Shown one piece after another: positions 2,362 to 24,010 of a DNA stretch of 24,010 nt; within the stretch, counting starts at the first letter, position 1; each line of letters begins with the position of its first letter. The DNA lies in the IMG/VR virus record IMGVR_UViG_3300035145_000988, positions 1 to 24,010 of that record; one strand, 5' to 3'. Position numbers and translations under genes: made by a program. The notes beneath the pieces were generated by a model. It was not told where the DNA came from. It saw nothing but the letters and a program-made list of their open reading frames with translations, and did not search any database. Source of the DNA: a virus.

Positions 2362-5300
2362 TTAGTTCTTAGTTACGTTGGATACAAAGGTAATGTTGAC
2401 ACTTTCTGTTGGGTTGATTGGTCCCAACTCTACATTGATCTTAACTTCATTAGTTGCGGTGTACTCAAAAGTAGGAATAATAAGTTGTGTTCCAGTTCTG
2501 ACATTACCATACTCTGTATGGAATACGTCGCTACCATTATCTATAACACCAAACTCGAAGAATTCTTTATCTCCGCTAGTTGGGTTCTTCGCAACTACAA
2601 CAACTTTTGCTCCACAATCAGTTGCACTAGCATAAATTGTAGAACTTCCGTTGTTTGTGGTTCCTTTAACTAGAGTAATATCTTCGGTTAGAATTCTGAC
2701 ATCGTTAAGTTCAAACTCCTTGAGATCACCATCAAAGACCTTAACTCCATTAAAGTTGCCAGTACCAAATGTTGTATTAAAATATACATCTCCTTGGTTG
2801 TCTAGTCTTAGAACAGGATCAACTGTCAATCCAGCAGACAAACCAAGATCGAAGTATTGCTTGGATGTATGAAGGAATGTTGTGGTGACAGAAGTATTAT
2901 CAAGTGTTGTTTCTGCACTGTTAAATGTCATTAGATTTGCAGTAATCTCAAACTGATTACTTGTTTGAGATCTGATAGTATCTACACTGAAGAAATCAAG
3001 TGCGGTTGTGGTGAGTTGTAATGTATTGTTTCCATCATTGTAGAAGTACAAGATGTTTTCATTTTGTCCAGGAGCAGTCTCTGGAATAATGTAAGTGTTT
3101 TGATCAACGTCTTTAACTCCACCAAGTGAACCCCAGTTACCATTGTTATCATATCCTTCAAACTGACTGGAAGTTGTATTAAATCTAATAGATCCAGTTT
3201 CTGCTGCACCACGTTGTGTATCTGCACCAACAGGAATAACAAAAGATGTCTGTGCGTCAACCTTGAGTTTCTTACCAGAGTTAGGTCTGATGATGATATC
3301 ACTAATGTCACTTGACATTACGTTTGCTAGGAACCTCAGTTCTCCAGAAACTACAAGAGGAACATCGCCAAGAGGTCCAACTCTTACTTCTTCAACACCA
3401 TTAAATTCTACTGCTGCTACTGCAAGAGAATTCCAGGTAAGTTCTGCTGTGTTGTTTGGTTGAGCACCAGTTGTATGTGTTGGTTCATTACCAGAACTAG
3501 CAGTGACACCTGCTTGAGTTACTTCATAAACATTATTTCTGTAAGCAACAAACTGTCCTACAGTTACAGGTGTGTTAGCAGTCCATTGTGTAAATGCAGG
3601 AGCGTTTACATTATACGAGGAAATAGTCCTCATATTAACAAACTGAAGTGCAGTAGGTGTTACCTTCAGAGTATTAATGTTATCATTGATAAACCATAGT
3701 GTGTTATCATTAGCACCTACAGTTTCTTCTGCTTTGATATAGGTGTTGCCATCTAGGTCACGAACACCACCCAAGGAAGACCATGCTGAGTTAGTGCCAT
3801 TGTAACCTTCATACTGTTGTGTCTCAGTATTATATCTGATAAGACCATCAACCAATTGGTTTGAAGGAGGTCTTGCTGCAGTATTACCAACAGGAATTCT
3901 AATTGCACTGTCTGTATTGACATTTGCAATTCTACCAGGAGCAGGTTTTAGAATTAGATCATTGGATCCAAGAGAACGGAACTCATTGGTTTCAATCTCA
4001 AGTTGGTCATTAACACTAACTTTACCAAATGTTTTTAGTTCTCCTTGTGTAGATAGATCACCAGAAGTTAAAGAGATTGATAGAGTTGATTGTTGAGTTG
4101 CACTATCAAAAATATCAACGTTTGATGAAATCAAGAACGAACCTGCTGTGGTCAGTGTAATACCACCAGCAGCATTATTAATATTGGTGACTGCCAAATC
4201 TGTGCCAGCAATATCAGGAGCAGTTAATGTTCCAGAGATATTACCAGTAGCACCCGCTACTTCACCAGTTGCGGTGACGTTAATTGCAGTAAGTTCTCCA
4301 CTATTAACATCAGACTTAACAATATCTGTACTTACAACAGATTGAACTGTAATCTCTGCTCCAGATCCAAAAGATCTTGGGTTGTTTGGATCTGGTGTTA
4401 ATGTTGCTGCAGTAGTAAATCTAAAACCAGCATCATCATCACCATTTGCACCTTGATCATAGTAATAAAGTGTTGGTGTATTAGCAGTTACCTTAAGTGT
4501 AAGTGAATTGCTTTCGCGCTTTACACCATCGAGATATTCAGAACCTGTAAAAGTTAGAATTGCTGTGCCAGCACCAGTTGGCAAAGTGTCCAATGTAACC
4601 TGTGTTGCACTATCAATAGATGCAATCTTAGTTCCTGTTGCTAGAGTACCGTTTCCAGTTGCGGTAACTTCCATACCAACAACCAAGTTGGTTACGTTGG
4701 CAAGTGTGACAGTTAAAGAAGTGTCATCTAACGTAGTAGAGAAACCTGTATATACAGAAGGTGCTTTGTCTCCACCCTCAAATGCTGATAGAGCAAAGTT
4801 TGCGCTTGCATTAGAAGCATCTGATAGATCAAACAGATAACTATCACCAACATAGAGTGTTAGATCAGGAGCAAGTACATCATCAATAAAGATTTTCTTA
4901 TCTGTTCCAATAGCAGTTGCTGTCGCGACAGAATATGTGTTTGCTGTGCTACCATTGAAGATAACATTATTACCAGCAGCAAAGTCTGTATCAACGCCTT
5001 GAGTTGTATCAGCAACAACAACTGATGTAATATTACTTCCAGAAGTTAGGATGCCAACAACATCAACAGGAGTAAATGAAGTTACACTATCAATCTGAAT
5101 ACTAAGATCATCTGCAGGTGAAGCACCACCAACTAAATTACCAGCAACGGTAACTGTTTCTTGTGCTACATATCCGAAACCAGCATTAGCACCTACGACT
5201 ACACTAGCATTACCGAATGAATCACGAGTTACATCAATTGTAAGTCCTGTACCAGAACCACCAGTAGCAGCAACTCCAGTGTAAGTTGAATCTGCTTGTG

Positions 5301-7503
5301 CTAGAATTGTAGTGCCACTCAGTAAAATAGCAGATGCAACACTACCATCTCTTTTCTTAATTTCTTGTCCAACAGAAACTGCGGAAGTAGGAACAGATCC
5401 ACTAAATGTTAGTGTCTGTGTTGGGAAGAATTTAACTACTTTAGTATTTGGTTGTACTAGGTCAGTAGGAGAAACTGTGAGTAAATCACCAACAGAGTAA
5501 CCATTACCTCCTTCAGTTACTTCTACTTGACTAATTGCACCTAGAACATCAACTCGATAAGAGAATGCTGTTGTTCCTACACCAAATGCTGGTTGGAAAG
5601 ATAGAGTTGCAGTACCAGGAGCGGTAGGTGCTGTGCTAAGAGAAACCGTTAAAGTTGCAGCGTCTACGTTACTAACAGTTGTTCCTGTAGCGAGAGTACC
5701 AGTACCACCAGTTTGAACAATACTGTCACCAATAGTAATACCAGTTACAGAGGTTAATACAATATCTGTTAGGTTTGGTGAAGAGAATGTCAGACTTGCA
5801 GCACCAGAGCTGTCTGCTGGGAATGACATTGTTAGTGTTGTTGCACTATCAATAGATTGAATAGTTGCACCCTGTGCGACAAATCCAATGTCACCTTGAC
5901 CATTGAAGATGTTCATTCCAACCGTAAGACTGGAAGTATCAGCAATTGTAATTTGTGATTGTCCTTGGGTCAGGGTTGTATTAATACCAGAGATTGAACC
6001 AGGAAGAACTGTAGTTAAACCAGATACTCCTGTTGGCAGTGCTAGAAGATCTCCTACAGTATATCCAGAACCATATGTAGATACGGCAAAGTCAGCAATA
6101 GTTCCAGGTGATGTAGTTGAAGTAAATGCAAATCCAGAACCAAATCCACCAAAGAAAGAACTACTAATACCAAGTACATCATTTACCAGATAGTTTTGAC
6201 CACTGGAATTAACAGCAACGTTAGTAACACTACTTGTATAACTTACAGTGCTGATAGTGTATACTGCACCAGTACCACCACCAATTTGACCATCGATAAA
6301 CATGATCTGGTCACCAACACCATAACCAGTACCTGCTTGTGTAAATGATACAGTGTCTAGTTCTCCATTTGCATTGATTACAACATCAGCAGTTGCTCCT
6401 CTACCAGCAGTTGTTGTAGAACCAGAGACAACGGTAATATTGTTACCCATGCCAGCGTGCTGGGAACATTCATATCCAATTCCCTGAGCACCAGCAGTGT
6501 CATGAATAACGAGATCAACAAATGCACCTGCGTTTCCTTCTACACCAAATGTAACTACAGTAAAATCAGCAGCAGGCAGTGCGTCTAAAACACCTGCACC
6601 ACGGAAATAAATCGGATGCCCAGTCATACTGGCATCAGAAATATCAAATCTATATGTGTTACCAATCTCTAATGTTGGAGTTGGTCTAGTAACACCATCA
6701 ATTACATATTCATATGGGGTTACACCGCCGTCTCCAATTGAGGTAACAACAAAAGTTTGTCTTGGTACGTTATAAACATCAACAGCGTTATAACTTCCTG
6801 TTGTATAACCAGATCCAGGAGTTGATGCAGAACCACCAAGATTAGTAGTACCAGTTACAGTAACATCAAAAGTTGCACCTGTACCAGAACCACCAGTAGC
6901 AGGAACAGATGTATATGATCCAGGTGGATAACCAGAACCAGCATTAGTAATACCACCTAACAATTCTGGAACGTTAAATTCGCATGTAGCTCCAGTGCCA
7001 TTACCACCAATTAGATCAATACCAGTGTAGTTTTGACCAGGAACGTAGTTTGCACCAATATTGAGAACAGTACCAGCAAATCCTACAACGGTGATAGTTG
7101 CTTCACCACCGTCACCAGTACCACCAATGAAAGGAACCTCTGTATAATCACCTTCGTCATATCCAGAACCAGTGTTAGAAACTAGAAGTCCAGCAGTCTC
7201 AAGATTATTCTTTTGAACAACAAAATCTTTATAAGACGTAAGTCTGATATCAGAAATATCAAACAGTCTTTTTGTATTAGCAACAAACCCAATTGTATCG
7301 AGAGCAGGTCTGTAAATACCAAGCTCAGCGTCAGAAGTGAACGCTAGTGACGGAGCTAACCTAGTACCATCTCCAAGTTTTAAGTTGCCAGTTGATAGAT
7401 CACTACCACCTTGCGTTACGTTAAAGATTGACGTTGCAATCTCGTTAATTTTTACCCTTTGCTGTTCAAAGGTGTCGGTACGTGCGACATTAATTGCTGG
7501 CAT
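2362..7503 (-). CDS. Mosaic tail-fibre-like structural protein (1,713 aa) with cupredoxin-like domains
   Basis: The N-terminus (INVARTDTFEQQRVKINEIA, then GNLKLGDGTRLAPSLAF and LGIYRP) is typical of fibre-like proteins of marine myoviruses. Domains in order are GxGY repeats (about 108-240); a cupredoxin-like domain with His296, Cys346, His349 and Met352; GxGY-vGD repeats (about 380-510); two GM/SIDS repeats (about 505-640); more GxGY modules; a second, degenerate cupredoxin-like domain split by a third GM/SIDS repeat (about 870-1025); two tandem fibre repeats of about 115 residues (about 1173-1288 and 1396-1510); and a C-terminal beta-sandwich-like segment including DNGSDVFHTEYGNVRTG. The start has GAGAG about 10 nt upstream, inside the 68-residue gene that it overlaps by 14 nt. 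The next gene starts one base after its TAA. It lies in the gp9-gp12 region by synteny; a host-contact or fibre-attachment role is inferred. Confidence 0.85.
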   Translation of the reverse strand: MPAINVARTDTFEQQRVKINEIATSIFNVTQGGSDLSTGNLKLGDGTRLAPSLAFTSDAELGIYRPALDTIGFVANTKRLFDISDIRLTSYKDFVVQKNNLETAGLLVSNTGSGYDEGDYTEVPFIGGTGDGGEATITVVGFAGTVLNIGANYVPGQNYTGIDLIGGNGTGATCEFNVPELLGGITNAGSGYPPGSYTSVPATGGSGTGATFDVTVTGTTNLGGSASTPGSGYTTGSYNAVDVYNVPRQTFVVTSIGDGGVTPYEYVIDGVTRPTPTLEIGNTYRFDISDASMTGHPIYFRGAGVLDALPAADFTVVTFGVEGNAGAFVDLVIHDTAGAQGIGYECSQHAGMGNNITVVSGSTTTAGRGATADVVINANGELDTVSFTQAGTGYGVGDQIMFIDGQIGGGTGAVYTISTVSYTSSVTNVAVNSSGQNYLVNDVLGISSSFFGGFGSGFAFTSTTSPGTIADFAVSTYGSGYTVGDLLALPTGVSGLTTVLPGSISGINTTLTQGQSQITIADTSSLTVGMNIFNGQGDIGFVAQGATIQSIDSATTLTMSFPADSSGAASLTFSSPNLTDIVLTSVTGITIGDSIVQTGGTGTLATGTTVSNVDAATLTVSLSTAPTAPGTATLSFQPAFGVGTTAFSYRVDVLGAISQVEVTEGGNGYSVGDLLTVSPTDLVQPNTKVVKFFPTQTLTFSGSVPTSAVSVGQEIKKRDGSVASAILLSGTTILAQADSTYTGVAATGGSGTGLTIDVTRDSFGNASVVVGANAGFGYVAQETVTVAGNLVGGASPADDLSIQIDSVTSFTPVDVVGILTSGSNITSVVVADTTQGVDTDFAAGNNVIFNGSTANTYSVATATAIGTDKKIFIDDVLAPDLTLYVGDSYLFDLSDASNASANFALSAFEGGDKAPSVYTGFSTTLDDTSLTVTLANVTNLVVGMEVTATGNGTLATGTKIASIDSATQVTLDTLPTGAGTAILTFTGSEYLDGVKRESNSLTLKVTANTPTLYYYDQGANGDDDAGFRFTTAATLTPDPNNPRSFGSGAEITVQSVVSTDIVKSDVNSGELTAINVTATGEVAGATGNISGTLTAPDIAGTDLAVTNINNAAGGITLTTAGSFLISSNVDIFDSATQQSTLSISLTSGDLSTQGELKTFGKVSVNDQLEIETNEFRSLGSNDLILKPAPGRIANVNTDSAIRIPVGNTAARPPSNQLVDGLIRYNTETQQYEGYNGTNSAWSSLGGVRDLDGNTYIKAEETVGANDNTLWFINDNINTLKVTPTALQFVNMRTISSYNVNAPAFTQWTANTPVTVGQFVAYRNNVYEVTQAGVTASSGNEPTHTTGAQPNNTAELTWNSLAVAAVEFNGVEEVRVGPLGDVPLVVSGELRFLANVMSSDISDIIIRPNSGKKLKVDAQTSFVIPVGADTQRGAAETGSIRFNTTSSQFEGYDNNGNWGSLGGVKDVDQNTYIIPETAPGQNENILYFYNDGNNTLQLTTTALDFFSVDTIRSQTSNQFEITANLMTFNSAETTLDNTSVTTTFLHTSKQYFDLGLSAGLTVDPVLRLDNQGDVYFNTTFGTGNFNGVKVFDGDLKEFELNDVRILTEDITLVKGTTNNGSSTIYASATDCGAKVVVVAKNPTSGDKEFFEFGVIDNGSDVFHTEYGNVRTGTQLIIPTFEYTATNEVKINVELGPINPTESVNITFVSNVTKN
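2975..3985 (-). repeat. Two tandem fibre repeats of about 115 residues in the 1,713-aa protein
   Basis: Copy 1 (about 3640-3985) and copy 2 (about 2975-3318) share this order: IIP/IRIPVG, then G-(L/S)IR(Y/F)NT, (Y/F)EGY, W-SLGGV(R/K)D, NTYI, (L)-F-ND-NTL and TTALxF. A linker of about 105 residues separates them. This pattern is common in phage fibre shafts and probably marks repeated beta-structured segments. Confidence 0.7.
4425..4895 (-). other. Degenerate second cupredoxin-like domain interrupted by a GM/SIDS repeat
   Basis: The frame KIFIDDVLAPDLTLYVG, then GDSYLFDLSDASN, mirrors the first domain (EYVIDGVTRPTPTLEIG, GNTYRFDISDASM). The ligand sites are absent: GHPIYF is replaced by SANFAL, and GYECSQHAGMG by LYYYDQGANG. 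A GM/SIDS repeat (about 4549-4725) sits between the two halves, as if inserted into a loop. Confidence 0.55.
6410..6745 (-). other. Cupredoxin-like domain with complete His/Cys/His/Met set (in the 1,713-aa protein)
   Basis: The segment runs from YEYVIDGVTRPTPTLEIG through GNTYRFDISDASMTGHPIYF to GYECSQHAGMGNNITVV. The order His296 (codon 6616-6618), Cys346 (6466-6468), His349 (6457-6459), Met352 (6448-6450) matches type-1 copper proteins. The C-x2-H-x2-M spacing is that of amicyanin, and the GHP segment occupies the place of the first copper histidine. Metal binding is inferred. Confidence 0.65.
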
Positions 7504-20700: not shown

Positions 20701-23700
20701 ATGAATATTACTGTATGTTAGTTTTGCTGCCCAGTTTCCTGGTCTGTTTAAGTTTTGCTTAGTTTCAACAACATAACCAGGACCATATCTCATAATATCT
20801 TTACTGATGCTAGAGAAAGTCATGAGAGAACTTTCAACATCTGCACACAATGGCGTTAGATTATCAATTAGAACATCAGGATCAGTAACTTGACCTAAGT
20901 TTCTCATTGCCAAGATCATTTGATCTCTAGCATAGTCAAAAATTAGATCCATACCATCGAGACTGTTAATACCACCATCAGTAGTAATCTTACGGATTTC
21001 TCCATCAGGATATCCAGTCTCAACCCAGAAATCTAGTCTTGTGTTTTGAACTAGTCTTTGGTTACCACCATATCTTAGGTGATACACAATATCATCAATT
21101 TGTCTTCCAATAAGTTTTTCGCAAAGTGCAGCACTTACTGCAGTATTGACATTAGCAGCACGATAACTTTCTGTAGCACTAATAATAAATGATCTATTGA
21201 GATTAATTAGTGTTCCAGCATCATAGAACGTTCCGTTGTTTAGATTGCTCCAAGAGAACGTTGCTTGGTCTGTACCAGAGAAAGATACACCAACACTAAC
21301 TGTTTGTCCAGGTGGAACAGAGAATGTATTACCAGGAGCAACAGATGCTGTACTGGTTGGTAGAACTCCAGTGGTTCCACCTCCAGACAATGGAGTGTTA
21401 CCTGCAGGAACACCACCGCCACCAGCAGAGTTTGCTAGAGCAGCACGACTGAGAGTAATTTGTGTATCACTATCGATAGAAACAACTTTAGTTCCTTCTG
21501 GATATGCTCTACCAGAACTTACATACATGCCAATAGCAATGTTGTCAGTGCTGCTGACATTCATTACTGTAGAACCTTGGATGTATGTGATATTTACATC
21601 AATGTAATCCCAGTTTCTGATAGCAAGTTTTGCTAGTCTAGTAGCATAAGAGAAAATATCAGTAGAAGCAGATCTATTGTTTTGAATATACAGATATTCG
21701 CTATCTGAATTGAAGATAGATGTATAATCAATCGTCTTGATATTTCCACCAAAACGAAGATCATGATCATATGCTTCTAAGATAGATCTAATGTTTCTTT
21801 GATAATCATCAGTCTTAGTTGCCCAATCTAGGGATGGATGAGTTGCTCTTGCATAACCAAGAGTTTCATCAATAATAAAGTCGGTATTTCTTTCAATTTG
21901 ATTTGCAGCATCAATCCATCTACCATTACGCTGGTAAATATTTTTTAATTTTCTAAAGTGTTTATCGTTGTATTGGTTATCCTTAAATGCAACGTACTTG
22001 GCATAGAAGTTAACACCACCATACTTAGTGACATCAGTTGTTCCTTCACCAGTCTGCTTTTGATTTGCTCCTAGTGGTGGAGCAGAGAATGTAATTTGAC
22101 TACCAGAAACAGTGTATGAAACACCAGGATCTTGTAGTACACCATCTAAAGTAACAATCAAATTTTTCTCATCATATGGAGTAAACACTGTATCTGTGTT
22201 TACATTCCTAAGATCAAATGTTGTCTTTCCTTGTAATCTTCCATCTCCATCATAGTATCCAGTAAATGGATTTTTAAAATACCATGGTTTAGGAAGTTGT
22301 GGTGCTGGTGGATTGGTAACATCATCATAATAACCAGGAGTGTTATTGAAAATCCTAACCTCAAAGGCAAGCATTTCATTAAACAGGAATTCACTTGCAG
22401 CAGCAGATCCTTGTGCTTTACGAATTCTTTGGTTCTCTACTTTCTGTAGAGTTTGAGTTACAACTCTGGTTGTGTTCTCAACAGTAATTCTATTCTTTTC
22501 AGGATCCCATAGTTGTAAGATAGTAAAATGATCTGCCTTTGGCATTTCTGCTGGCATTTCAGTTGTAGCAGTTGCTTCAATATCTACTTGTCCAAATAAC
22601 TGGAAACCAGCAGGGTGAGTAGTAGACTTGATTAGTTCACGCCATTGATCAATTGGTGTTTTAGACTTAACAACGTAAGAGTAATCTTGATAGAAATAAC
22701 TATCTAATACTTTCTGATTAGATACACCTAAACGTCCTCTATCAGACTTGAAGTATCCAATATTGTCATAGAAAGAAGCAATATCCTCACTGAACGTAGT
22801 AACATAAACTTTGCGAACTGTGCCACGAGCATTTGGACCAGCACCTCTAATTTCTACATTCTCTCTAACAATACCAGTTACACTTCTAAGTTTTAGTAGA
22901 TTAGATCCTTTTCTCCATTCAGTTACAGTTGCTCTGAATACTTCTACACCATTAACAGTTTGTGTAACAAGCTCACCTTTTCTATATGATGTGTTATTGT
23001 TCTTTGCAACAGTGACAATATAGTTGGATGAAAATGTAGAAGATACTGTTTTATCTAAGTGGAAAGAACCACCATTGTTAGTAATAGAAATACTTCTAGG
23101 AATACCAATTGTTGTACTATCTACATATGCCTCAACATCTCCCTCAACAATTGCTACTTCAGGAGTAAATGTATATCCTCTACCAGGATTGTCTACAACA
23201 ATAGAGAAGATCTCACCATTTCTAACAACAACTTTGAAAGTTGCATTTACACCATCACCATTAGTAATGATTACTTTTGGGTTTGAATAATTTGATCCTT
23301 TGTTGGTTACATCAATACCGACGATAGTTTGAGATGCTTGATCAAATAGAACAGTTGCAGTTGCTCTAAACTTTTCATTAGGATCAACGCCATCAATGAC
23401 TGGAACTTTCTTATAATTTAATCCAAGGTTCGTGATTGCATAACTGTTAATCTCACCAACAGCGAACTGACCAGTAGTAGTATAAGAAATGGATCCAGAA
23501 CCATCCCAAAGAGGCTCACTATCAATATCATAAACAAAACGAGTTGATGTAACATAGTTAACTGTCTTGACACCTTGTAGTGGATCTGTTATAATTCTAA
23601 GAGACTTGCCCTCGGCATTTACAATGCCTTTATTATCAAAATAGTAGAAGTTGGTGAAGTCTGTGCCTACCTTCTTACTATAGTTGTTGGATGCTAATCT

Positions 23701-24010
23701 AGCACCAAAACCAAACTTGACATCAGTGAAAGCGCCAGGGTTTCCTGGTAGAACTGTCGAGGCAGTCTTTTCTAATGTTTTTAAATTATAACTCTTACTA
23801 GGAGACATATCAAAGTAAGTCCCAGTGAGAGAAGAGTGAGACGTGTCAAACGTATACTTGTAAAACTCCTGTACATTGATATCTGGATTAGGAGTGAATG
23901 TAGTATTGTCTTCAGAGAATTCAAACTTATAGATTAGAGAACCAACAGAATCAATACTTACTAGTCTATCTTGAGAACTAACATCAAAGAAACTAGAACT
24001 AGGAGTTAGT
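17725..24010 (-). CDS. Giant gp7-like baseplate wedge protein (partial; N-terminus beyond right edge)
   Basis: The frame stays open from its TAA at 17725-17727 to the right edge, giving 2,094 visible residues. The ATG at 23806-23808 is therefore an internal Met; the 67 codons before it read as ordinary protein. About 22590-22700 encodes SYVVKSKTPIDQW followed by HPAGFQLFG, which aligns with T4 gp7 RSYYVMKIKSNLPSSRW and HPVGFGFIA. Gene order (directly before gp8) agrees. In T4, gp7 is the large wedge subunit of the baseplate. T4 gp7 has about 1,032 residues and ends soon after this stretch; here about 1,600 residues follow. They include three LDGVLQ-type segments, two helical (L/D)R(F/Y)GGN segments (about 21800 and 21070), one GM/SIDS repeat (21430-21590), several GxGY repeats, and two C-terminal DTTxF modules (18505-18660, 17760-17905). 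The gp7 call is sound for the middle; the function of the extension is unknown. Confidence 0.82.
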   Translation of the reverse strand, partial: LTPSSSFFDVSSQDRLVSIDSVGSLIYKFEFSEDNTTFTPNPDINVQEFYKYTFDTSHSSLTGTYFDMSPSKSYNLKTLEKTASTVLPGNPGAFTDVKFGFGARLASNNYSKKVGTDFTNFYYFDNKGIVNAEGKSLRIITDPLQGVKTVNYVTSTRFVYDIDSEPLWDGSGSISYTTTGQFAVGEINSYAITNLGLNYKKVPVIDGVDPNEKFRATATVLFDQASQTIVGIDVTNKGSNYSNPKVIITNGDGVNATFKVVVRNGEIFSIVVDNPGRGYTFTPEVAIVEGDVEAYVDSTTIGIPRSISITNNGGSFHLDKTVSSTFSSNYIVTVAKNNNTSYRKGELVTQTVNGVEVFRATVTEWRKGSNLLKLRSVTGIVRENVEIRGAGPNARGTVRKVYVTTFSEDIASFYDNIGYFKSDRGRLGVSNQKVLDSYFYQDYSYVVKSKTPIDQWRELIKSTTHPAGFQLFGQVDIEATATTEMPAEMPKADHFTILQLWDPEKNRITVENTTRVVTQTLQKVENQRIRKAQGSAAASEFLFNEMLAFEVRIFNNTPGYYDDVTNPPAPQLPKPWYFKNPFTGYYDGDGRLQGKTTFDLRNVNTDTVFTPYDEKNLIVTLDGVLQDPGVSYTVSGSQITFSAPPLGANQKQTGEGTTDVTKYGGVNFYAKYVAFKDNQYNDKHFRKLKNIYQRNGRWIDAANQIERNTDFIIDETLGYARATHPSLDWATKTDDYQRNIRSILEAYDHDLRFGGNIKTIDYTSIFNSDSEYLYIQNNRSASTDIFSYATRLAKLAIRNWDYIDVNITYIQGSTVMNVSSTDNIAIGMYVSSGRAYPEGTKVVSIDSDTQITLSRAALANSAGGGGVPAGNTPLSGGGTTGVLPTSTASVAPGNTFSVPPGQTVSVGVSFSGTDQATFSWSNLNNGTFYDAGTLINLNRSFIISATESYRAANVNTAVSAALCEKLIGRQIDDIVYHLRYGGNQRLVQNTRLDFWVETGYPDGEIRKITTDGGINSLDGMDLIFDYARDQMILAMRNLGQVTDPDVLIDNLTPLCADVESSLMTFSSISKDIMRYGPGYVVETKQNLNRPGNWAAKLTYSNIHIIGDPILPVGECDDVVSATDSLFANVRDILEQEDVTRSLPDFIDGETKDFELYWDNGSPVKLEEDENLFLTINAVLQRPKYTENYPLFDAYFIDRSVIPNLIKFDVAPIWDQDLGAKSIGEPTAVEKVVGIGVGNYKRLTIDYALVNGVRTGPFLILDVEDNTVQNIESEDNLYVFLDGVLQQKGERQSYTISGPNIFFNVPIQPEVKIDMRYLYGRDVGQILNIYDYAPDTYFARARLEIDFDSSILSPYQTYSWMGDKIGSPIHVWQVKADGTFNVIGEVSNLFASGNTLAWDLKSQNASIDETLDLVFGVKGYYNRTFVVAAANYTNINLVYKTDELGRKVLEDDNALWSGTFLGKTYRSPFLSLSSGDQIRVEGEEGFRKIKRLPQTATSKDGRPGEQLTDDIYGAVSIETYTGITRGEGLAVVATIENGSVVSLTWNQRSYDPLTQPTAYQYYTPPVLKFIPKNGNGGGARANVLVAKGQVISVDLIDGGSGYTEAPQVIVSRRFDILSERDIGVSLVTLNLNTQVQGFGMNAISFISEISDAGLTGISSGSSVSLGIPTSEIDIERVFTPDEIEVFSIGGQLDPQRDVIEVKSWQETSAANVPLIDTFHNATVVSAEVQDIVTVNSISTVSKAITTTIENLIPNDALSNVNFFETAAYLQVDLAPGETVVYIPDTTKFDPNGFLLIGDEVVFYSKKLNDRFIKVDRAQRGTTEKGWLAGTFIRQIPELVSVAFGGVLEIQSESDVTMVSAGFVDSGFERKVERQVTAPEELDITKSALEVVLTPPPGGVIDGYEETAFITDPVIKRDGSSVDLIDVQGLYYVLKRDTTQVQVVNSVFGVDTGYIGQYTRTNVGHTISMFDGIFDDGVANASGLSILEFSTYFPAFRIEDFTKRAKSSYTIAGAYFNLLPPSIQNPVAVTSSSGTIPSTVQVQDTTLFPTTGYVFTSGGSVIQYTGKTSNSFTGCTHVKGPTTISNGQQLVPHTIT

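Follow-up and report, generated by a model that had tools for sequence, protein, structure and literature searches.

A probable copper-binding cupredoxin domain in a baseplate/tail protein of a T4-like marine phage

The IMG/VR virus record IMGVR_UViG_3300035145_000988 was analysed over a window of 24,010 bases, which holds a baseplate/tail gene block on its minus strand. One open reading frame (ORF) of this block (7503-2362, minus strand) encodes a protein of 1713 amino acids (aa), and we estimate at about three in four the probability that residues 250-360 of this protein (6424..6756, minus strand) are a cupredoxin domain with an intact type-1 ligand set, that is a copper-binding module in a baseplate/tail protein of a T4-like marine phage. 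Judged from its sequence and its predicted structure, the domain most likely binds copper. It is a known fold in a new setting and not a new fold.

The initial annotation had pointed to the segment 6410-6745, which on the minus strand comprises the codons for residues 365-253 of the ORF, and had proposed that it retains His296, Cys346, His349 and Met352 with the loop spacing of amicyanin. The translation of the ORF bears this out directly: H, C, H and M are read at these positions (codons 6616..6618, 6466..6468, 6457..6459 and 6448..6450, all on the minus strand), and the last three residues are spaced C-x2-H-x2-M, as in the ligand loop of amicyanin. His296, Cys346 and His349 are the predicted copper ligands 1 to 3 and Met352 the predicted axial ligand 4; all four are invariant in an alignment of 26 domains described below. 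The whole protein contains 3 Cys, 6 His and 10 Met, and the C-x2-H-x2-M motif, which occurs in it once, appeared with a mean of 5e-5 per shuffle in 20,000 shuffles of the sequence.

The cupredoxin outline that had been read from the sequence is recovered with high confidence by structure prediction, and both structural comparisons agree with it. AlphaFold2, run on residues 247-363 with an alignment of 67 sequences, gave a model with nine strands, a predicted local distance difference test score (pLDDT) of 94.2 and a predicted template modelling score (pTM) of 0.88. In a Foldseek search of the PDB the three-domain nitrite reductase of Hyphomicrobium (2dv6, E 2.3e-4) came first, followed by rusticyanin and multicopper oxidases, and 38 of the best 50 rows are copper proteins by title, including all of the first ten. 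VIA-align superposed the model on 2dv6 with a Z of 9.2 (99 residues, 2.8 A, chain residues 25-136, the N-terminal part), on two-domain laccases with 9.1 (105 residues, 3.0 A) and on rusticyanin with 8.4 (96 residues, 2.9 A), values that are moderate, as the tool's own note puts the best Z at 7-8 for models without clear relatives. The model would thus place the domain in the cupredoxin superfamily, as a Greek-key beta-sandwich that matches solved cupredoxins across its whole length.

Type-1 copper proteins have one His where a strand begins and the Cys where the penultimate strand ends, with the second His and the Met in the following loop. The topology of the AlphaFold2 model shows this arrangement: in model numbering, H50 stands just before strand 52-55, C100 ends the penultimate strand 94-100, and H103 and M106 lie in the loop that precedes the last strand, 108-113. 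When residues 36-155 of rusticyanin (1a8z) are matched with model residues 1-113, H50 would fall at about 85 and M106 at about 148, assuming no net gaps. H143 and M148 of rusticyanin are named as mutated sites in PDB entry titles, and H85 and C138 are positions which we take to be ligands of that protein.

Conservation was studied with a profile (A1) of 26 domains, made up of the window copy, four of 13 close IMG/VR loci and 21 of 22 loci from phage records; the remaining close IMG/VR and phage-record loci, mostly near duplicates, were left out. In a profile search the window domain was matched with E 1.2e-39. Only seven columns of the alignment are invariant, the four ligands and the residues Y, F and Y. 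Three viral scans, which retained the best 80 of 596, 581 and 509 relatives drawn from at most 600 pattern matches each, and a genome scan that added 27 loci brought the collection to 301 loci. The profile found 330 domain matches in them. Of the 310 copies that extend over the four positions, 309 keep H, C, H and M. Hence the ligands are not freely variable among homologues. The sole exception (locus L266) has E, S, N and I at the four positions, and such a loss of all four at once is what would be expected of one metal site. The full set is kept in 79 of 80 clusters at 70% identity and in eight of nine at 40%, while the identity among representatives has a mean of 37% and a minimum of 21%. 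Because some of the retrieval patterns contained ligand residues, copies were also counted separately at positions outside the patterns: C, H and M are kept in 81 of 81 copies retrieved by N-terminal-half patterns only, and the first His in 81 of 81 copies retrieved by C-terminal patterns. The spacing of the ligand loop among the 309 complete copies is x2/x2 in 302, x2/x3 in five, x2/x4 in one and x6/x2 in one, and the first ligand His is followed by P ('HP') in 89% of copies. The other 20 of the 330 matches are partial and do not cover the C, H and M positions; they were set apart as degenerate second copies. Ten of them keep the first His, several of the 20 being near-identical loci.

The search with profile hidden Markov models (HMMs) of cupredoxin families that had been proposed as a check missed the window copy and reached its relatives; the connection to copper proteins came from profiles, the predicted structure and these relatives, and not from single-sequence searches of Pfam and the PDB. 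The window domain falls below the cut-off of the plastocyanin/azurin family PF00127 (21.2 bits). In a set of 67 relatives (A5), PF00127 is found at E<=0.1 in six, with a best value of 4.7e-4. The copies in the phages ACG-2014j, P-SSM2, ACG-2014h and P-TIM68 are matched by PF00127 and by our own profile in the same places; with 21.7 bits the ACG-2014j copy lies above the cut-off, and the three others lie below it. The ACG-2014j copy matches profile A5 with E 1.4e-8. It has 24 PDB matches at E<=1, and 22 of these, the best with E 0.0039, are blue copper proteins, namely plastocyanin, rusticyanin, azurin, pseudoazurin, auracyanin or amicyanin. These plastocyanin-closer copies are found in the 'tail spike protein' of P-SSM2, in a hypothetical protein of ACG-2014h and in the 'baseplate wedge tail fiber protein connector' of P-TIM68. 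The ACG-2014j protein is recorded as hypothetical; it belongs to the subtilases (PF00082, E 1.4e-23), its C-terminal part, in which the domain lies, has a match to phrog_677 'baseplate wedge tail fiber protein connector', and we therefore rejected it as a fibre copy.

Two observations on these relatives may be added here. The cupredoxin-like domains of P-TIM68, ACG-2014j, P-SSM2 and ACG-2014h (loci L312, L313 1414-1740, L314 and L315) form a second sub-family of the type YICQFHGGM, nearer to plastocyanin. In ACG-2014j (L374 876-2924, corresponding to NC_026926.1 164875-166923) the plastocyanin-like domain stands at the end of the subtilase, a protease-cupredoxin fusion in a phage.

The 1713-aa protein itself contains a second, degenerate copy of the domain. 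Its N-terminal half (residues 857-918, 4750..4935, minus strand), recognised by profile matches and alignments, has an Ala at the first-His position; it is followed by an inserted module (residues 919-986, 4546..4749, minus strand), found by HMM search of the window proteins, and by the C-terminal half (residues 987-1030, 4414..4545, minus strand, boundary approximate), placed by an alignment of 13 homologues. Where intact copies show YxC-x2-H-x2-M, the second copy reads 'LYYYDQGANGDDDAGF'. None of the 13 aligned second copies contains C-x2-H-x2-M; the Cys position is occupied by D, S or N in 11 of them and by Cys in two. The model predicted for the second copy from 10 sequences (A7) is poor (pLDDT 65.7, pTM 0.53). 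A third, partial and likewise degenerate copy lies in an ORF of 2094 aa (23713..23895, minus strand; profile matches with E 1.9e-8 and 3.2e-5) and ends before the Cys-His-Met part. Ten of the phage records searched have weak partial matches resembling this third copy, in ORFs with lengths of 3224 to 5195 aa. The degenerate copies provide a natural contrast: a site that is not kept whole decays, and in the intact copies it is complete.

A search of 50,697 phage records with the window domain gave 40 that match at E<=1e-5; in the same set, the copy from S-B68 finds 70 records and that from Bellamy 22. By organism name, nearly all matching records are phages of Synechococcus, Prochlorococcus, Pelagibacter or Methylophilales, or marine single-cell or metagenome records; one is 'phage 023Pt_psg01', whose host is unknown. 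Nineteen domain-bearing records and genomes that were chosen for closer inspection have between one and five matches apiece at E<=0.001, counting the degenerate copies. Among the phage proteins that carry the module are tail-fibre, baseplate and other structural proteins. The same predicted fold was found among viral structures in fibre proteins of P-SSM2, in 'baseplate wedge tail fiber connector' proteins and in giant-virus 'Beta-sandwich' proteins. The giant-virus proteins are from Marseillevirus LCMAC201/202 and Pithovirus LCPAC302/304, and four of them bear the name 'Beta-sandwich'; their likeness is one of predicted structure.

Some of the bacterial genomes with matches lead back to phages. 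All three Pelagibacteraceae loci tested (L126, L131, L140) encode T7-type tail fibres (PF03906) bearing the domain, and two further bacterial-genome loci (L118, L125) have phage tail and baseplate family matches; on the strength of these tail-fibre and baseplate families we regard all five as phage or prophage. A clear cellular case is a 174-aa protein of a SAR86 genome (L139 2872-3396), which consists of a lipoprotein-like N terminus and the domain. In the SAR86 order, 51 of 101 genomes match at E<=1e-6, with ORFs of 167 to 3942 aa, and seven of 14 new loci (L362, L363, L364, L366, L369, L370, L373) have the same type of N terminus, in which a hydrophobic stretch closes with 'ACGGGG' or 'GCGGGG'. 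The one example of the lipoprotein-like protein that was searched has no Pfam match above cut-off and matches CBM_4_9 weakly (E 0.0089). By its sequence relatives, the module is common to marine phages and marine bacteria.

Several observations weigh against a copper-binding cupredoxin in the window. Taken alone, the window domain has no Pfam match and no PDB sequence match at E<=1. Among the 67 relatives, a plant At5g54830 domain is found in ten (best E 0.0061) and CBM_4_9 in five (best 0.0025), both about as weak as PF00127. Profile-profile comparison with cyanophage plastocyanins (A6) is weak, with probabilities of 15.7% and 12.3%, the A6 alignment having eight rows, most of them similar to each other and one poorly aligned. 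The top PDB profile match is a SUMO2 chain (E 0.0098 and 0.024), presumably by chance, and 12 of the 50 Foldseek rows have no copper-protein title (Flt3 complexes, the SO1698 peptidase and others). As to conservation, the 81 copies retrieved by N-terminal patterns amount to only 13 clusters at 70% identity, and divergent copies without a site may be under-sampled, since only the most similar loci were kept per scan. As the degenerate copies show, a relative of the domain that lacks the site is tolerated in this protein. Finally, the protein is made in the cytoplasm, where free copper is very low and conditions are reducing, and loading with copper there is doubtful. NCBIfam gave no match for the members of A1. 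The plant At5g54830-like domain (PF25489) may, as an aside, itself be an unrecognised cupredoxin relative.

The alternatives differ in what the conserved site would do. It could be a redox- or copper-responsive trigger, which takes up an electron or alters its state at the surface of the host and thereby signals contact or baseplate switching. The axial Met is kept as strictly as the other ligands, although other axial residues occur in type-1 sites, so that tuning of the site may matter; relatives are found in proteins with tail fibre, tail spike or baseplate annotations. Against such a trigger stands that no electron partner is known and that the module is common to phages whose hosts (cyanobacteria, Pelagibacter, Methylophilales) differ widely, and we consider such a trigger unlikely. 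The phage-borne copper might instead be recognised by a metal-uptake receptor of the host, in analogy to the Trojan Horse hypothesis for iron, which together with the histidine-bound iron of the T4 fibre (PMC11705849) lends this idea some plausibility. The module is indeed present in phages of ocean bacteria. However, no receptor is known, and copies in the baseplate need not touch one. Moreover, the copper of type-1 sites lies buried beneath a His edge, unlike the chelated metal of a siderophore, and a lure of this kind appears very unlikely.

The metal might also be another one, such as zinc or iron, or the four residues a plain structural cluster in a beta-sandwich that serves as spacer or sugar-binding module, with copper being incidental. 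The weak CBM_4_9 matches of the five relatives and of the SAR86 protein fit this, as does the ability of type-1 sites to bind zinc in vitro. Yet a set of four residues with an axial Met and a short ligand loop characterises type-1 copper, the fold matches are copper proteins and the ACG-2014j relative passes the cut-off of PF00127, which makes this explanation distinctly unlikely in our eyes. That a plastocyanin-like domain was captured from a cell and is retained as a scaffold only would agree with the degenerate second and third copies without site in the same phages. In such a relic, ligands should be lost one by one, yet 309 of the 310 spanning copies keep all four at a mean identity of 37% (minimum 21%), and we hold this to be extremely improbable.

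Under the preferred reading, a cupredoxin domain with an intact type-1 site, copper would probably be taken up when the assembled virion encounters the metal after leaving the host; loading after release is suggested by the very low level of free copper in the cytoplasm. As relatives of the domain recur in tail proteins of ocean phages, these virus particles may carry copper. The metal could then lock a rigid, stable and host-facing beta-sandwich module in the tail, although this is the weaker part of the proposal. A redox-responsive or copper-recognising role in host contact would be the next possibility, and the strictly kept axial Met mildly favours tuning of the site over mere bracing. A wider picture, which we put forward tentatively and regard as doubtful, is that type-1 copper centres are standard in the tails and baseplates of phages of the most abundant ocean bacteria, that they act in host contact through redox- or copper-gated attachment or baseplate switching, and that virions represent a pool of protein-bound copper in seawater.

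If copper is bound, a redox-active metal centre would be present at the host-contacting end, or close to it, in many marine tailed phages, T4-like ones as well as those with T7-type fibres, whose hosts range from cyanobacteria to Pelagibacter. The question whether metal or redox state controls adsorption would become concretely testable, virions would join the list of possible marine copper ligands, and a function label could be given to a module in proteins now named only 'virion structural protein' or 'tail fiber'. Iron has already been discussed as a metal of phage tails (PMC11705849).

Among the known systems, the plastocyanin/azurin family (PF00127), including the cyanophage plastocyanins, likewise combines the cupredoxin fold with the ligand order H...C-H-M. 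Plastocyanin is a small exported electron carrier, whereas the window domain is built into a 1713-aa structural ORF, and the spacing from His to Met is x2 in the window domain versus x4 in seven phage plastocyanins examined. A role as auxiliary metabolic plastocyanin was rejected, as the domain lies within a large structural ORF and seven of eight phages searched have a separate small PF00127 gene. The cyanophage petE genes are known (PMC3037559).

Amicyanin has the same C-x2-H-x2-M loop as the window copy. Its first ligand is followed by N ('HN'), while most phage copies have 'HP'. A relationship to amicyanin or a methylamine dehydrogenase context is not seen: amicyanin is no PDB sequence match of the window domain and surfaces only at E 0.99 for the ACG-2014j relative, and the named genes of the window are phage structural ones. 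The best fold matches are, as described above, multicopper oxidases, two-domain laccases and the three-domain nitrite reductase, and the pattern 'G-x-T-Y-x-F...HP' aligns with 'GKSYIFELKNMTQYQHPIHLHG' of PDB 6vox (weak, E 0.16). Unlike these multi-domain copper oxidases the window domain is single. HxH is absent from the six window proteins tested, including the 1713-aa protein, and without HxH neither a trinuclear copper site nor oxidase activity is expected in the latter. The fibres that bind iron through HxH pairs (T4 gp37 and Alteromonas phage R22Y), from which the Trojan Horse hypothesis is discussed, are also a case of metal in a phage tail protein and of marine interest, but their ligands differ (PMC11705849). 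A viral NirK has been reported and is a different case (PMC8115048). Among the matches listed in the open-licence PMC literature no report of a cupredoxin or of copper in a phage tail was found, though one may have been published elsewhere. The main text of PMC3037559, a source that describes virion proteomics of S-SM1 with 41 proteins identified, contains neither 'copper' nor 'cupredoxin'.

The gene block begins on the minus strand with a large structural ORF (24009-17725; phrog_4406), followed by a homologue of the baseplate wedge protein gp8 (17666-15852; PF09215), a DUF4815 protein (15802-7706; family match) and a small ORF that separates the latter from the 1713-aa ORF. Behind the 1713-aa ORF, a small structural protein and then the start of a tail fibre could be identified from the ORF listing and Pfam/PHROG matches, again on the minus strand. 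By PHROG, the 1713-aa protein belongs to phrog_6005 'virion structural protein' (E 0) with a partial match to phrog_32294 'baseplate wedge subunit', and the best match of the domain alone is phrog_30742 'tail fiber protein' (E 1.7e-16). The 'fibre-like' label given at first is therefore approximate: it suits the domain taken by itself, while the full protein matches a virion structural family and, partially, a baseplate wedge subunit. With phrog_6005 and the neighbours gp8, DUF4815 and tail fibre, it falls among the phage structural proteins, and these family names and the gene context suggest that it is part of the virion. The four PHROG families that match the full protein or the domain (phrog_6005, phrog_30742, phrog_32294 and phrog_677) are described by structural, tail-fibre or baseplate roles only, and neither copper nor cupredoxin is mentioned in their descriptions. 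In relatives, the homologue of the 1713-aa protein is annotated 'virion structural protein' and the upstream gene as structural protein, 'baseplate wedge initiator', 'virulence associated protein' or DUF4815 protein.

Directly before the cupredoxin domain, glycine-rich GSGY modules (residues 101-236, 6796..7203, minus strand) were found by HMM search of the window proteins. A further repeat module, '..VGM.V...G..A.GTKI.SIDSATQVTL..', occurs in three copies in the 1713-aa protein, one of them nested in the degenerate second copy, and in one copy in the 2094-aa ORF. Its copies lie on the minus strand at approximately 4546-4749 (residues 919-986), 5596-5988 (residues 506-574 and 579-636) and 21433-21594 (residues 806-859 of the 2094-aa ORF).

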